64,000 nt of DNA. Source: Bdellovibrionales bacterium CG10_big_fil_rev_8_21_14_0_10_45_34 (lineage in GTDB: Bacteria; Bdellovibrionota; Bdellovibrionia; Bdellovibrionales; 1-14-0-10-45-34). Every line of letters starts with the position of its first letter. Position 1 is the first letter of the stretch. Below, piece after piece: positions 33,470-64,000 of the stretch. Location of the stretch: NCBI GenBank assembly GCA_002778785.1, contig PEZS01000013.1, forward strand, positions 45,448-109,447. Direction: 5' to 3'. The notes under the pieces are model-generated. The model was not told where the DNA came from, ran no database searches, and saw nothing but the letters and a program-made list of their open reading frames with translations. The position numbers and the translations under genes were made by a program.

Positions 33470-33604
33470 TGTGGGGATGGTGCGGCGAACCACTTAAGAT
33501 CAGTATCTGGCGGGAATATAGCTTGCGCGTTGTAGAGTGCGGAAATCATTGGCTGCTTAGTCTAAAAATATCAGTTTTCATCGTCGGGTTTTCATATTTT
33601 CGTT

Positions 33605-33727
33605 CAGTGATCTAGTTGCACAGCGATCTAGTTGCTCAGTGATCTAGTTGCTCAGTGATCTAGTTGCTCAGTGATCTAGTTGCTCAGTGATCTAGTTGCT
33701 CAGTGATCTAGTTGCTCAGTGATCATC
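33605..33727 (+). repeat. 16-bp minisatellite, seven units and a decayed tail
   Basis: CAGTGATCTAGTTGCT is repeated in seven units from 33605 (33605, 33621, 33637, 33653, 33669, 33685, 33701) with one-base changes only in the first two, then a partial unit. To about 33890 the sequence keeps echoing TTGCTCAG-like words, so an older and longer array has decayed. The rest of the 690-base gap between the GNAT and RAYT genes holds no gene I can support. Confidence 0.93.
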
Positions 33728-33970
33728 CTGTGCGGTGACTCTCCTGCTCCAGCACCTTCTGTTCATTGATATTCTTGTCCAGACATCCTATGGCTCGGCT
33801 TTCATCTTCCTGCTCAGCAACTCCCTTGTGCAAGGACTTCTTGCTCAGCAATCTTCTCGTTCATTAAACTTTTTGTTCAGTGATTGTCTCTTTTCTTAAA
33901 TTAAAAGGTAGCGGTACCATAAATATTTAATAACACAAAGCATTCGGAGTATTACAAGGTTGCAGAGTCC

Positions 33971-34018: not shown

Positions 34019-34819
34019 ATGAAATCTAAGGGTGAGAGTTTGAATACACGATTTAAGAAAAAGCATTCAGATTCGAAAAACGCACCATTCAAAGTTGTTT
34101 CATCTAAGAAACAACATGAGAATTCTACCTGCAAAAGTCTCCTTAGTGTTTCAGGTAAAAACCAACTCGTGGATGCGGATGCGAAACCATCTAAACTCAG
34201 GCGTGTTTCGCGAAAAAAACAACTTGTTCTGATCAAGGAACCACGGCCAGACACGAAGCTTTGGTGGATTGAAACTCAGCACCAATACGGCGGTTCGCTT
34301 CACTACAGAAAGGTAAAGCGACCTTTTGATACGACCAAGCTTATTCATACTGTTTTTAAGGCGAAACTTGGTAAAAATATCTGGTTTACCAAAAGCCAAG
34401 TATCAATCGGGAGACTTTTAGAAACTGCTGCCAAAAGATACAAGCTAAAGCTCAAAGACAAAGCGATCAATAAAGATCATATACACCTTCTCATTGAACC
34501 TAATCAATCCCAACCCTACGATGAAGCCCGCAGGGAGTTTCTTAGATTCCTCAGGTTTTTTGCAGCACAAATGGCCCGAAAATACGAAGAAATTCACAAG
34601 CGCCTCGGACTGAAGAAATCCCAAGATTTTTGGATCGCAAGACCGTTCACTAGGCTTGTCGGATGGGGCCGAAAAACCCTTACTAACATCCGCAACTACT
34701 TTGAGAAAAACCGCAACGAAGCCGCCGGTTTCGTCACCTTCACACCTAGAAAACACAGACTAAATGCATTTTTAGCTAAATGGCAAACCCAAGCACAGAA
34801 ACTGGGCAACACTAGTTGA
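34019..34819 (+). mobile_element. REP-associated tyrosine transposase (RAYT, Y1/IS200-like)
   Basis: 266 residues. RAYTs are domesticated single-strand HUH nucleases that act on REP palindromes. The catalytic domain runs from about residue 80: LHYRKVKRPFDTTKLIHTV, the metal-binding pair DHIHLLIE (His154, His156) and the nucleophile in NIRNYFEKN (Tyr227). The SLHYRK opening rather than the YHV of mobile IS200, and the C-terminal extension (FVTFTPRKHRLNA), suit the RAYT class. An unusual basic, low-complexity N-terminal tail of about 75 residues precedes it. No flanking IS ends or target duplications are seen, so it is a single-copy host-type gene rather than an insertion sequence. Confidence 0.8.
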
Positions 34820-46118: not shown

Positions 46119-46757
46119 ATGCGCAACTTGGAATTAATGAGAATAAGCAAATTCAAACTGAAAGTTCCAACATCCCAAGTTCGAGGGTTTACACTCGTGG
46201 AAGTGATGGTTGCGCTTATGTTGCTCACTATGGGCATCATTGCTCTTTCGAGCAGTTGGAGTGGGAGCCTATTCTCTTTTCGAAAAAGTCAGATTGTGCG
46301 CGACGCTGTTTTTTTGCTTAAGACAAAAATGAGCGAAGTCGAGAACAAGTACACGGGAGACGGCTTTGCAAGTATCCCTGAAGAAGAAGAGGGAGAATTT
46401 GGTGAGGAGTATCCCGCCTTTAAGTGGAAGATAGAAAGCAAAGAGATTGAGTTCCCGGACATGACATCTTTTATGCTGAGTAACAGCGAAGAAGGTGTCG
46501 ATCAACTCCAGCAAACTGTTATTGCTCAACTGACAGATCAGCTCAAACAAAATGTGAAAGAGGTTAAGCTCACCGTCATTTATACAAAAGGCAAAAAACC
46601 CATCAGCTATTCATTGGCAACAATGTTCGTGAATTTTGGCGCAAACTCCCTAGGCGCGCTCGGCTTTGGAGCGGGAGCCACGAATCCTTCTGGGCCAAAC
46701 ACCAATAGCGATTCGTTGCAGCCTGGTTTAGGGAACCCGGCTGGGGGAAATCCATGA
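46119..46757 (+). CDS. gspI: Minor pseudopilin GspI
   Basis: 212 residues from ATG 46119. The leader is then 23 residues to Gly23, the same as in GspG, and GGAAGG lies about ten bases upstream. A GTG at 46077 would add 14 residues. The mature N-terminus is FTLVEVMVALMLLTMGII with Glu at +5. The head includes LKTKMSEVENKYTG, typical of GspI, and the C-terminus is a Gly/Pro/Asn-rich tail (about 45 residues) not present in short GspI proteins. It initiates the tip complex with J and K. Its last bases overlap gspJ (ATGA). Confidence 0.88.
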   Translation: MRNLELMRISKFKLKVPTSQVRGFTLVEVMVALMLLTMGIIALSSSWSGSLFSFRKSQIVRDAVFLLKTKMSEVENKYTGDGFASIPEEEEGEFGEEYPAFKWKIESKEIEFPDMTSFMLSNSEEGVDQLQQTVIAQLTDQLKQNVKEVKLTVIYTKGKKPISYSLATMFVNFGANSLGALGFGAGATNPSGPNTNSDSLQPGLGNPAGGNP

Positions 46758-47677
46758 ACAGCAAAGGCCTCACACTTATTGAACTTATAATTGCTCTGTC
46801 GTTAATGGCTTTTTTGACTTTGTTTATTAGCAATCAGATTCGCCAGTCGCTGAGGCAAAAAGACAAGCTTAGCACCGACATTTCAGAAAGATCGAAGGTG
46901 AATACCGCCCTCAGAATTATGGAGCATGATATTAAAAAGGCCTTTAACGAAAGAGACATTCTGGCTGAAGTCGTTCAGAAAATGAAAGAAGCTGAGACGG
47001 CGCAGAATAGTAGGAACGCAAATAACAATCCAAACAACCCGGCAGCACAAACGCCTCCTCCGGTACCGCCTCCTAATGCAGTTCCACCTCCCAACGCGCC
47101 TGGCGCGCCTGCAAAGAAGTTTGAATACACGGCGCCTCCGAAGTTAACCGGTTTTTTAGGCTCAGAGAATGCACTTTATTTTACAAGCCACAACCAGCCT
47201 AGGTATGACAAAGACTCTAAGGTTAGCCATTTAATGGAAGTCGGATACTATCTAAAACCTTGCCCCAAGAATGACACCTACACCGAAGACAGAGGGAACT
47301 GCTTAGTTCGATCGGTCTCTGCCCATCTCGACGGCAGGTTAGAAGAAGGCGGCAATGAAACTATTTTAACCGACCATGTAGAGGCTTTAGAATTTTTGTA
47401 TATTGGCGACGAAAGCCCTGACTGGGTCAAAGAATGGCGGACCGACGAGAGAGGGGCTGCCTACTCGATCGGGAAGTTTCCAAGATATGTGCAAATTGGC
47501 ATCAAAATCGAAAAGAACAAAAGAAAGTTCGCATCAAAAACCATTGCTGAAATTGTTTTACCAAATAACCTCAGCCCTAATCAAAATACAAACAATCCTC
47601 TAGATGGGCGACCAGAGGACAACAATTTCACCCGGGATTCATTTATCGACCAAATGCTGGAGAAGCCAGAAAATTGA
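46754..47677 (+). CDS. gspJ: Minor pseudopilin GspJ
   Basis: 307 residues. A four-residue start then Gly5, LTLIELIIALSLMAFL with Glu at +5 of the mature chain. The head carries an unusually long insert of Asn/Pro/Ala-rich low-complexity sequence (about 95-128: NNPNNPAAQTPPPVPPPNA and so on), then FLGSENALYFTSH and DHVEALEFLYIGDE, as in GspJ. Longer than typical (about 200-240) because of that insert and a C-terminal extension. ATGA overlap with gspI and overlap with the gspK start show tight coupling. Confidence 0.88.
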   Translation: MNSKGLTLIELIIALSLMAFLTLFISNQIRQSLRQKDKLSTDISERSKVNTALRIMEHDIKKAFNERDILAEVVQKMKEAETAQNSRNANNNPNNPAAQTPPPVPPPNAVPPPNAPGAPAKKFEYTAPPKLTGFLGSENALYFTSHNQPRYDKDSKVSHLMEVGYYLKPCPKNDTYTEDRGNCLVRSVSAHLDGRLEEGGNETILTDHVEALEFLYIGDESPDWVKEWRTDERGAAYSIGKFPRYVQIGIKIEKNKRKFASKTIAEIVLPNNLSPNQNTNNPLDGRPEDNNFTRDSFIDQMLEKPEN

Positions 47678-49185
47678 AACAACCCAATGACTCCACTAAC
47701 AGGAATGATTCGCGTACGTCGAGCGACGAGTACGCGGTGAAACGCCACCTCTCCGCAGCGGGGACCCGCAAGAAGAAGCCAGTTTCACAAGGCTCGAGAA
47801 GCGAAGGCGTGCATTCGCGTACGTCGAGCGACGAGTACGCAGTGAAACGCCACTTCTCCGCAGCGGGGACCCGCAAGAAGAAGCCAGTTTCACAAGGCTC
47901 GAGAAGCGAAGGCGTGCATTCGCGTACGTCGAGCGACGAGTACGCGGTGAAACGCCGCTTCTTGGCAGCGGGACAGCGGGGGGCGGCGCTGATATTTACT
48001 ATCTTCGCCCTCATGATCATGATGTACGTGGCCTCTGAGATTGTTTACGACACAGCCGTTGACTACAGAGTAACTAATTCTGAGTACAAAAGTCTGAGAG
48101 CGCATTATAATGCGAAGGCAGGAATTGAGTTTAGCCTGCTTAGGCTCATGATCTTTCGACAGGTTAGCAATCAATTTAAAGATCAACAGCAGATGACCAA
48201 CATGATCTGGCAATTCCCAATGGCCTGGCCGCTTGTGGCGCCCGATAAATCGCTTGATTCGGAAAAAAGAAATATAGAAGAGACCGCAGGAGAATCGCTG
48301 ATAGAAGGTTCTTTTGTCACTACCATCACACCTGAAAGCACCAAGATCGATATCAATGATTTAGCGATCGATAATGAAGCCTACAGAAAGATCATCATCC
48401 AGCAACTGGCCGCCATAATTCAGAACGCTTTGGATGCCGACACGGAGTGGGCACGAAATAAACGCGGCGAATACCAAGCAATGGAGATCGCAAATAACAT
48501 AGCCGACTGGGTGGATCAAGATAGCGATGCCCGAAATGGCGGCTCAGAAAGTGCGCCCTATAGCCCGGATGAATACGGAACTGACGTCATTTACCCTCCA
48601 AACCGCACATTTAGAACTATCGACGAACTTCATATGGTAGCTGGAGTCGACGACGAGATTTTTAAATTGTTGCTTCCGAACATAACTCTTTTTGGCTCCA
48701 AAGGAATACTTATTAACCAGGCCGGAAAAGACATCCTGATGGCTATTGATCCGATGATCACAGAGCAAGTTGCTGACGCCATTCTTGAAAGAGTAGCCGA
48801 CCAGGCCCAAGGTCCGTTTAAAGGGCCCGATGATTTTTACACTTTCTTGCAAAACCAAGGGATTAATCCCGCGCCACTGAGAGAGGCGAACTTGCCGCTC
48901 GTGTTCTCTGAAGAAGTTAACTTTCGTATCTCGAGCCAAGGCCAGTTTCAGTCTGTCGGCAGAGAAATCATTGCGGTGACTTATGACTTTGATACAGTAA
49001 AAGACAGGTTGCAGAAGTTGGTAACACCGCCCGATCCACAGGCTCCAAATGAAGCGAATCAGGATCCGGCAAATCCTCAAAATCCAGCGCCTGCCAACCA
49101 GAATCCCAATCAGAGTGCGCCTCCTACTCAAGAGAGCAAACCTGCAGTGGGAAGACCCGAGGTTGTTTTTTGGGAGGAGCGTTAA
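47674..49185 (+). CDS. gspK: Minor pseudopilin GspK with repeat-expanded leader
   Basis: 503 residues from TTG 47674, overlapping the gspJ stop. The core is GspK: processing site QRG/AALIF at Gly103, the hydrophobic helix without the +5 Glu as usual for GspK, NSEYKSLRAHYNAKAGIEFSL, then the large head with DINDLA, IADWVDQDSD and helix-hairpin-helix-like SAM motifs, and a Pro/Asn-rich C-terminal tail. What is odd is the leader: 103 residues against about 7-15, made of two complete 35-residue units and part of a third, all encoded by a 105-bp repeat. An internal TTG at 47962 would give a normal seven-residue leader and may be the real start. Confidence 0.88.
   Translation: MKQPNDSTNRNDSRTSSDEYAVKRHLSAAGTRKKKPVSQGSRSEGVHSRTSSDEYAVKRHFSAAGTRKKKPVSQGSRSEGVHSRTSSDEYAVKRRFLAAGQRGAALIFTIFALMIMMYVASEIVYDTAVDYRVTNSEYKSLRAHYNAKAGIEFSLLRLMIFRQVSNQFKDQQQMTNMIWQFPMAWPLVAPDKSLDSEKRNIEETAGESLIEGSFVTTITPESTKIDINDLAIDNEAYRKIIIQQLAAIIQNALDADTEWARNKRGEYQAMEIANNIADWVDQDSDARNGGSESAPYSPDEYGTDVIYPPNRTFRTIDELHMVAGVDDEIFKLLLPNITLFGSKGILINQAGKDILMAIDPMITEQVADAILERVADQAQGPFKGPDDFYTFLQNQGINPAPLREANLPLVFSEEVNFRISSQGQFQSVGREIIAVTYDFDTVKDRLQKLVTPPDPQAPNEANQDPANPQNPAPANQNPNQSAPPTQESKPAVGRPEVVFWEER
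47711..47973 (+). repeat. 105-bp tandem repeat (2.5 units) with REP-like palindromes
   Basis: Units begin at 47711, 47816 and 47921 (partial), nearly identical. Each holds CGCGTAC and GTACGCG arms around GTCG/CGAC, and a second imperfect palindrome with GTGAAAC and GTTTCAC arms and an inner AGAAG/CTTCT pairing. All three frames of the repeat are open along the gspK sense. The unit length is a multiple of three, so the frame is kept. The paired palindromes resemble REP/BIME elements. Confidence 0.88.
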
Positions 49186-52949: not shown

Positions 52950-54401
52950 ATGAAAGGTTCGAACTTCAATCGCAGAGAGTTTGTTTTAAAGACCCTAGGT
53001 CTTGCAACATCAGCCGGCGCTTTGGCGACTCTCAGCCCAGAAAAGCTTCTCGCACGGCACATGCTTAATGATCCCTCTCGCATCATCACTATTGATGACG
53101 ATCCCAAAAGCCTAATCGATTTTAATGAAGACTTAATACTTGGCGAGGGAGAAAATCTCAGAAACGGCCTAACAGACTCCCAGAAGGTTTCGATACTTCA
53201 AGGCGGCACTTCCAAAACACAAACCATCATCAACCTAGCACTTCCTAAGAACACGAAGTTTAACGTAGCACTTATTGAGCAAATTACCGGCGAAGCCCAA
53301 CATATCGTCAGTGACACATCTCAGACTTTTAGTTTTCATTCTTACCGCTTGAGATCACTCCATTTTTCTAAACTGAGCCCCTCACTTCAGTATGTTCTCG
53401 AAGTAAAATCCGAAAGCGGCAGTTTAATTGATCGCCGTGGAGTTCGGACAATCGATACAGACAAAGAGCCGGCCCGGGTAGCATTAGCCTCTTGTGCGCT
53501 CGATCTTGCCTACGGCACTCGAGAACTCGCGTGGAAAAATCTGGCTAAAGCTAAGCCCGACGTTATTTTGCTCATGGGCGACAACTTTTATGTAGATATT
53601 CCTATGCCAGTCACGTCGTGGGCACCGCAAAGACTCATCTGGGGCCGCTATATGCAAAATAGGCGCACCCAAGGACTCTACTTTTTAGACCACCTGATTC
53701 CCGTATTGGCCACGTGGGACGACCATGATTTCGGTAAAAACGACACAAACGGCCAAGTGCCTTGGCGTGAGTTTGTGCAAAAAGAATTTCGGAGATTCTT
53801 TCCGGTTTTGGATGGCGACGGATTCAGCCGCGGTCCTGGCATTAACTTTAAGTGGAGTGCTTTTGGCCAAGATTTCTTTATGATGGACAGCCGCAGCTAC
53901 CGGCAGCATAGCTTGTTCTCTTTTACCAAAAGTACATTTTGGGGCAACGACCAAACACAGTGGCTTTTTGACAGCGCAGAAGAGAACGGCAATACAGGCT
54001 GGATTTTGAACGGACTGCAGTTTTTCGGTGGATATCTTCCGAGGGAAGAATCGTTCGAGGCCACTAGTAAGGCCGAACTAGAGAGCCTTTTAACTAATCT
54101 AAAAAAGAAGTCTAGAAAGTTTATCTTTTGTAGTGGTGATAAGCATCATACAGAAGTTATGAAAATTGAAAAAGAATATCTGGGATACTCCTCGTTGGAG
54201 CTTACAGCCAGCGGGATTCACCAGCTTCAATTAAGGAATCCCTGGTCAACATCTCCAAACCCCCGACAAATCGCAGCAGCGGGAGGCCATGAGAACTTTA
54301 TGGTCATAAATATTAAGCGCCAAAAATCGACTTACTTGGATATTTTTTCAGTTGCCAGCAAGCACAACAAAATACTGTACGGATTTTCACAAAAGATCTA
54401 G
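52950..54401 (+). CDS. phoD: PhoD-family alkaline phosphatase or phosphodiesterase, Tat-exported
   Basis: 483 residues. The signal NFNRREFVLKTLGLATSAGALA has a twin-Arg motif, so it is exported folded. A beta-sandwich N-domain (about 60-170) precedes the metallophosphatase core with RVALASCALDLAYGT, DVILLMGDNFYVD, VLATWDDHDFGKNDTNG and FCSGDKHHTEVM, the PhoD metal-ligand blocks (Asp, Asn and His residues for Ca/Fe). It cleaves phosphomonoesters or diesters in the periplasm or after secretion. AGAGGGGGGAG upstream supports the ATG. It follows the T2SS operon and might be one of its clients, though that is speculation. Confidence 0.88.
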   Translation: MKGSNFNRREFVLKTLGLATSAGALATLSPEKLLARHMLNDPSRIITIDDDPKSLIDFNEDLILGEGENLRNGLTDSQKVSILQGGTSKTQTIINLALPKNTKFNVALIEQITGEAQHIVSDTSQTFSFHSYRLRSLHFSKLSPSLQYVLEVKSESGSLIDRRGVRTIDTDKEPARVALASCALDLAYGTRELAWKNLAKAKPDVILLMGDNFYVDIPMPVTSWAPQRLIWGRYMQNRRTQGLYFLDHLIPVLATWDDHDFGKNDTNGQVPWREFVQKEFRRFFPVLDGDGFSRGPGINFKWSAFGQDFFMMDSRSYRQHSLFSFTKSTFWGNDQTQWLFDSAEENGNTGWILNGLQFFGGYLPREESFEATSKAELESLLTNLKKKSRKFIFCSGDKHHTEVMKIEKEYLGYSSLELTASGIHQLQLRNPWSTSPNPRQIAAAGGHENFMVINIKRQKSTYLDIFSVASKHNKILYGFSQKI

Positions 54402-54559
54402 GGCGTGTCCTCATTTGGGCGAGCGTCGCGAGAAAGCCAGTTTAACGCGAGATCAAAGCGCGAGGAGAAGCCATAGCGCCTCTTTGGCGCCGACGAGCAA
54501 CGCTGAGGTCGCTTTAAATTGGCTTTTGCAGTAGTTCGACCAAACGAGGACACGCCCTA
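54399..54559 (+). repeat. 161-bp imperfect palindrome (REP/MITE-like)
   Basis: The 20-base outer arms 54399-54418 and 54540-54559 pair with a single mismatch (TAGGGCGTGTCCTC and its complement). Inside, AAAGCCAGTTTAA pairs with TTAAATTGGCTTT, and further partly paired blocks follow, so the whole folds into a long hairpin. It begins in the stop codon of phoD. The AAGCCAGTTT word is shared with the 105-bp gspK repeat. No open frame. It may also end phoD transcripts. Confidence 0.85.
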
Positions 54560-54705
54560 AACAAAGGCCGCGTTGGCTCGCCGAATTCGGCGTTCGGTTC
54601 TTTTTGTTTTGGTTTGGCGGTTATTTGATTGCTGCGCCAGAAGGTCACTTGCACCTGCCGGCAGCAGATGCCAGGATACTCAACTTATTAACCAGGAGAG
54701 GGGCT

Positions 54706-59754: not shown

Positions 59755-60016
59755 CGCGTGCGAGCGCTTCACGTTCATCCGGGACGGCATCGCCCACTAA
59801 CTCTCTTCCTTTCTTGGCCAGACACGGACTCCTGTCCTCGCCGGCGTCGCAGCTATCGCGTGCGAGCGCTTCACGCTCAATCGTTGGTACAACCCACTAA
59901 CTCTCTTCCTTCTTGGCCAGACTCGGACTCCTGTCCTCGCCGGCGTCGCAGCTGACGCGTGCGAACGCTTCACGCTCGCCGGAGGTCTGGCCAAGAAGGA
60001 AGAGAGTTAGTGGGTT
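59755..60016 (+). repeat. Compound repeat: three direct units and a 32-bp perfect inverted repeat
   Basis: CGCGTGCGAGCGCTTCACG-like unit starts lie at 59755, 59857 and 59956 (third with one change), about 100 bases apart. A 32-base stretch in unit two (59891-59922) returns as an exact inverted copy at 59985-60016, ending unit three, with a 62-base loop. The G+C content is much higher than in the flanks. No coding frame makes sense across it. It fits a BIME-like palindromic mobile repeat and could terminate the upstream transcript. Confidence 0.9.
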
Positions 60017-60046
60017 GACGTCTACTTGAGTTATCCTTTTACTCAA

Positions 60047-63906: not shown

Positions 63907-63910
63907 TGAT

Positions 63911-64000
63911 CTAAGTGTTCTCTATCTAAGTGTTCTCTATCTAAGTGTTCTCTATCTAAGTGTTCTCTATCTAAGTGTTCTCTATCTAAGTGTTCTCTAT
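63911..64000 (+). repeat. 15-bp minisatellite, six or more units, runs off the window
   Basis: CTAAGTGTTCTCTAT is repeated exactly six times from 63911 to the last base, so the array probably continues beyond. Non-coding, behind the protease gene. Perfect identity implies recent expansion or active slippage. Confidence 0.95.

Follow-up and report, generated by a model that had tools for sequence, protein, structure and literature searches.

REP sequences are high-copy, dispersed palindromes of 20–40 bp with an unpaired GTAG/CGTC end tag and an associated RAYT transposase. Like BIMEs, they are short, GC-rich and mostly intergenic, and some REPs sit in the 5′ ends of open reading frames (PMC3733652). 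In Rickettsia, palindromic elements (RPE-1 and others) have inserted in protein-coding genes, and N-terminal insertions of these elements were reported to be expressed in vivo (PMC3733652). Class III (prepilin) leaders are hydrophilic, end in a Gly that is required in the prepilin peptidase motif and are followed by a hydrophobic helix; a review gives 6–26 residues for known leaders and describes none near 100 (PMC4471445). Here we describe a gene for the tip pseudopilin GspK of a type II secretion system (T2SS) whose leader contains a tandem array of a palindromic repeat, and we compare it with these systems. The window is the whole stretch of 64 kb that was analysed.

The gspK leader and its tandem array

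The gene gspK spans 47674–49185 and has gspJ (46754–47677; PF11612 and N_methyl) as its upstream neighbour; both genes and all elements of the leader given below lie on the plus strand. GspK is recognised by its T2SSK domain (PF21687 T2SSK_1st, E 8e-12; PDB 3ci0 chain K, E 2.6e-4), a leader ending in Gly, a hydrophobic helix and its place after gspJ. Its TTG start at 47674 overlaps the gspJ stop codon as TTGA, and the frame is stop-free from there to the stop at 49185. The prepilin peptidase motif QRG (47974–47982) is conserved in relatives, with cleavage predicted after 47982, between QRG and AALIFTIFALM. The leader up to the cleavage Gly thus has 103 residues, as an earlier note on this DNA had reported, whereas ordinary class III leaders, with which it shares the hydrophilic character, the terminal Gly and the following hydrophobic helix, have 6–26 (PMC4471445). 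The genome encodes one prepilin peptidase domain (PF01478, E 9e-21).

The length is due to a tandem array at 47708–47972, which is the top-scoring array of the window in Tandem Repeats Finder (period 105, 2.5 copies, 96% matches, score 495). Unit 1 (47708–47812) and unit 2 (47813–47917) are each 105 bp long and 98% identical, differing at 2 of 105 positions, and are followed by a partial unit 3 of 55 bp (47918–47972), of which the first 38 nt equal unit 1 and the last 17 have diverged by four differences, with homology running to 47972. The array of about 2.5 units announced in the earlier note is therefore real, although the note let it span 47674–47973; the repeat is confined to 47708–47972, and 47674–47707 is the ordinary, native 5′ part of the leader (MKQPNDSTNRN...). 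The changes in unit 3 replace S by L and H by R beside the cleavage site. Divergence confined to the end of unit 3 is not what a simple recent insertion would give; selection on the residues nearest the cleavage site, or a complex junction, may account for it.

The composition of the array differs from that of its surroundings. Its G+C content is 61% versus 46% in the window, and in a leave-one-out test its codon use scored below all 89 gene pieces tested, so that the array fits captured non-coding DNA. The peptide that it encodes is strongly charged. The earlier note had also pointed to the absence of stop codons in the gspK frame, and the units are indeed open; this is weak evidence on its own, since a shuffled unit is stop-free in a given frame in 34% of shuffles and four of the six reading frames of the array are open.

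Each unit carries a 24-nt hairpin, GCGTACGTCGAGCGACGAGTACGC, with a 9-bp interrupted stem (47712–47735, 47817–47840 and 47922–47945), and a further palindrome, GTGAAAC...GTTTCAC. The window holds three copies of the hairpin versus zero expected, so that the repeat itself cannot be a product of chance; the copies on other contigs are not identical to it at this place. The palindromes that had been noticed before are present, yet the folding of a single unit exceeds that of shuffled sequence by little (z −0.67 and −1.82). The 300-nt region as a whole folds strongly (z −5.35), and in view of the low values for single units this largely reflects mutual pairing of the tandem copies.

The dispersed family and the REP label

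Outside gspK, the core of the unit (GAGAAGCGAAGGCGTGC...ACGTCGAGCGACGAG; 47786–47842, with a second occurrence at 47891–47947) is found in three intergenic places of the genome. The gspK, C8 and C6 copies align with 89% mean column identity. One copy, on contig C8 (7095–7148), has a rarA-like gene on one side and a secretin gene on the other; one on contig C6 (238750–238819) closely follows a histidine kinase gene; and a partial one on C6 (200517–200566) lies downstream of groEL, the neighbouring genes being named by reading their translated open reading frames. By eye, the similarity of the C8 copy extends into the flanking portion GTGAAAC...CGCAG, and contig C10 holds an extra weak match. 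In 139 other genomes of the order, the core gave only isolated single-mismatch matches whose surroundings are unlike the element. The gapped, exact core pattern was absent from genome contigs of 84,980 species and from viral contigs, a distant blastn search of the region against plasmids gave no match, and Rfam had none in the array region. As far as the searched collections show, the repeat family therefore appears to be small and lineage-specific. The comparison of the unit with its own and related genomes, which had been proposed as a check, thus returned three further loci at home and none among the 139 relatives, and it supports the suggestion that a mobile repeat entered the gene.

The same note had called the element REP/BIME-like, a label that the tests do not bear out. 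Although the element, like REPs and BIMEs, is a short GC-rich palindromic repeat and mostly intergenic, the copy number of the gspK family is far lower (core at four loci and one weak match in a genome of 3.06 Mb), and visual comparison with a description of REPs revealed no GTAG/CGTC end tag. A connection through RAYT was considered and rejected: the genome contains RAYT-like genes (seven Y1_Tnp matches, six of them over the cut-off), but their flanks, 1.5 kb on each side, share no repeat with the gspK family. That the gspK repeat is a REP is thus not proven.

The closest analogue is the in-frame Rickettsia palindromic element, to which the gspK element is likened by description. Both are palindromic repeats that are in frame and open within genes and have further genomic copies (PMC3733652); here, a net insert of 264 nt without a stop lies in the conserved gspK, and the same element is found elsewhere in the genome. 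The gspK element differs from the Rickettsia elements in having only about four loci, of which one is intragenic and tandemly amplified, in sitting in a leader that is probably cleaved off and in belonging to another lineage.

Several other repeats were observed in the window and the genome. A second tandem and inverted GC-rich element (59755–60017; 99-bp unit, 1.9 copies) lies in a gene gap, with an inverted copy in its flanks (CCCACTAACTCTCTTCC.../...GGAAGAGAGTTAGTGGG). A partly self-complementary sequence of 165 bp (54395–54561), shortly before an ssb-like gene, is a MITE-like dispersed repeat with 94.5% identity to a stretch of C8 (L081:15414–15578). A RAYT-like Y1_Tnp gene (34207–34819) has several paralogues of 77–85% identity in the genome (L064, L065, L067), some of which have a GGTAGCGGTA-containing sequence in common in their flanks, and less than 1 kb upstream of this gene the 16-bp unit TCAGTGATCTAGTTGC is repeated 7.6 times (33604–33749). 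At 63909–64000 the 15-bp unit ATCTAAGTGTTCTCT is repeated six times up to the window end, where a gap of 24 N follows (L073:1–24). Intergenic elements common to C10, C8 and C6 (L059:1423–1692, L004:1360–1437, L005:1367–1647) match at 86% over 78 nt and 75% over 126 nt. They suggest that several small families of repeats form a mosaic in this genome.

Junction geometry, start sites and rival explanations

The gspJ–gspK junction was compared with those of 29 relatives, all from other families of the source genome's order. In 28 of these the cleavage site lies 10–92 nt past the gspJ stop, in contrast to 308 nt in the source genome; in the remaining one (L028), the open reading frame taken as gspJ ends just beyond the cleavage site. 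Depending on the choice of start, the leaders of these 29 relatives have mostly 7–37 residues and possibly 54 in one case, and their gspK starts at or near the gspJ stop. In eight of them an ATG in the gspK frame overlaps this stop as ATGA, and in L031 the overlap is TTGA as in the source genome. Removal in silico of 47708–47971 (264 nt, 88 codons) leaves 44 nt from the gspJ stop to the cleavage site and a leader of ordinary length, MKQPNDSTNRNGQRG followed by AALIF(TIFALM), which counts 15 residues. The edges of this insert are the points at which repeat homology starts and stops. Homologues sharing the long leader would have spoken against a mobile origin, but no relative shares it: among 56 relatives with a GspK match, the longest open frame has 490 codons versus 534 here. 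A search for related loci with GspK as query gave no confirmed match. Given the distance of 308 versus 10–92 nt and the restored leader of 15 residues, insertion in frame with tandem amplification is the best reading of the array, ahead of slow growth of the leader.

TTG is a weak start codon. The one at 47674 is preceded by an SD-like GGAG (duplex −6.4 kcal/mol), and opening its start region costs 7.5 kcal/mol; these and the energies below are model values without a translating ribosome and only rank the candidates. Within the array, two internal codons come into question. The GTG at 47947–47949 would yield the leader MKRRFLAAGQRG of 12 aa, of textbook length and charge, with a weak SD duplex (−2.5) and an opening cost of 26.8 kcal/mol. 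The TTG at 47962–47964, the one named in the earlier note, is thus a candidate but not the sole one; it would yield a leader of 7 aa, its SD-like GGTGA forms a duplex of −7.6 kcal/mol, and opening it costs 20.2 kcal/mol. We also considered an ancestral start at ATG 47687 or ATG 47705, the latter directly adjoining the array, which the array would have shifted out of the gspK frame. It was set aside in favour of TTG 47674, since relatives often have a start that overlaps the gspJ stop, in one of them as TTGA.

The leader of textbook length and charge from GTG 47947 and the SD-like motif before TTG 47962 would suit an untranslated, structured spacer upstream of a GspK that starts at either codon, in which folded RNA would lower GspK relative to GspJ and the number of units might tune the effect. 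The lack of a coding signature in the array and the strong folding of the 300-nt region are in line with such a spacer, and for several species REPs at the 5′ ends of open reading frames are regarded as control elements that do not code (PMC3733652). However, the internal starts are predicted to be buried in stable structure (20–27 kcal/mol versus 7.5 at TTG 47674), the folding is largely pairing between copies, and a spacer would not need an array that is in frame and free of stops, so that we consider this reading rather unlikely; its earlier form, with the start at TTG 47962, is not supported, given the lower opening cost at 47674 and a native start that has been kept in frame. The odds that the frame was kept by luck are estimated at about 1 in 9, the product of about 1/3 for a length divisible by three and about 0.34 for an open frame. 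Together, the accessible TTG 47674 and the kept frame favour translation of the whole leader, which is probably translated from this codon and then removed by prepilin peptidase.

If the leader is translated, it could also have a function in the cytoplasm, either as a domain or as a switch of variable length, and be kept because extra units slow or regulate GspK insertion, processing or pseudopilus assembly. A unit length that is a multiple of three makes gain or loss of units frame-neutral, the peptide is strongly charged, and the two residue changes of unit 3 lie beside the cleavage site; against this, such a leader is missing from all 56 relatives with a GspK match, the same DNA is non-coding at other loci and its codon use is unlike that of genes, which makes a functional leader highly improbable. 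A very improbable and unsupported idea is that the array is a frame-neutral dial of length and structure at the gspJ–gspK junction, with a strain-variable unit number setting the amount or processing speed of the tip pseudopilin. An assembly artefact, in the array itself or in its copy number, is very unlikely. The assembly does contain short gaps of N, of which two fall directly on or next to tandem repeats (at the window end and start of L073, and in the flank of L067 on C13) and one adjoins the C8 family copy, although a run of N can also be a masked stretch. The array, however, is free of N, units 1 and 2 are distinguished by two positions and unit 3 has diverged, so that one read stretch was not simply duplicated, and the unit has homology independently on C8 and C6. 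With some tandem repeats of this assembly interrupted or bordered by N, the number of units in the array is itself uncertain.

A probable passenger in a presumably disposable leader

We give a probability of roughly 60% to the reading that a dispersed repeat inserted in the gspK leader and was amplified there, and that the leader is translated, cleaved and tolerated. A small lineage-specific repeat would have entered the cytoplasmic leader just before the prepilin peptidase motif and would then have been amplified in tandem on site, with a net insert of 264 nt (88 codons) that would keep the native TTG start in frame. The leader would be made as a hydrophilic cytoplasmic tail of 103 residues, and prepilin peptidase, which we assume to cleave a leader of about 100 residues, would cut after Gly103 and leave the mature pseudopilin unchanged. 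On this reading, gspK tolerates the insert since the leader is disposable. The biology of the array is probably neutral, and the array is most likely a tolerated genomic parasite or passenger rather than a tuning device. If the leader is translated and cleaved, prepilin peptidase would accept a leader roughly fourfold longer than the longest one described, which has 26 residues, cleaved leaders would offer a safe landing site for small repeats, and a lineage outside Rickettsia would carry an in-frame palindromic repeat in a conserved gene.
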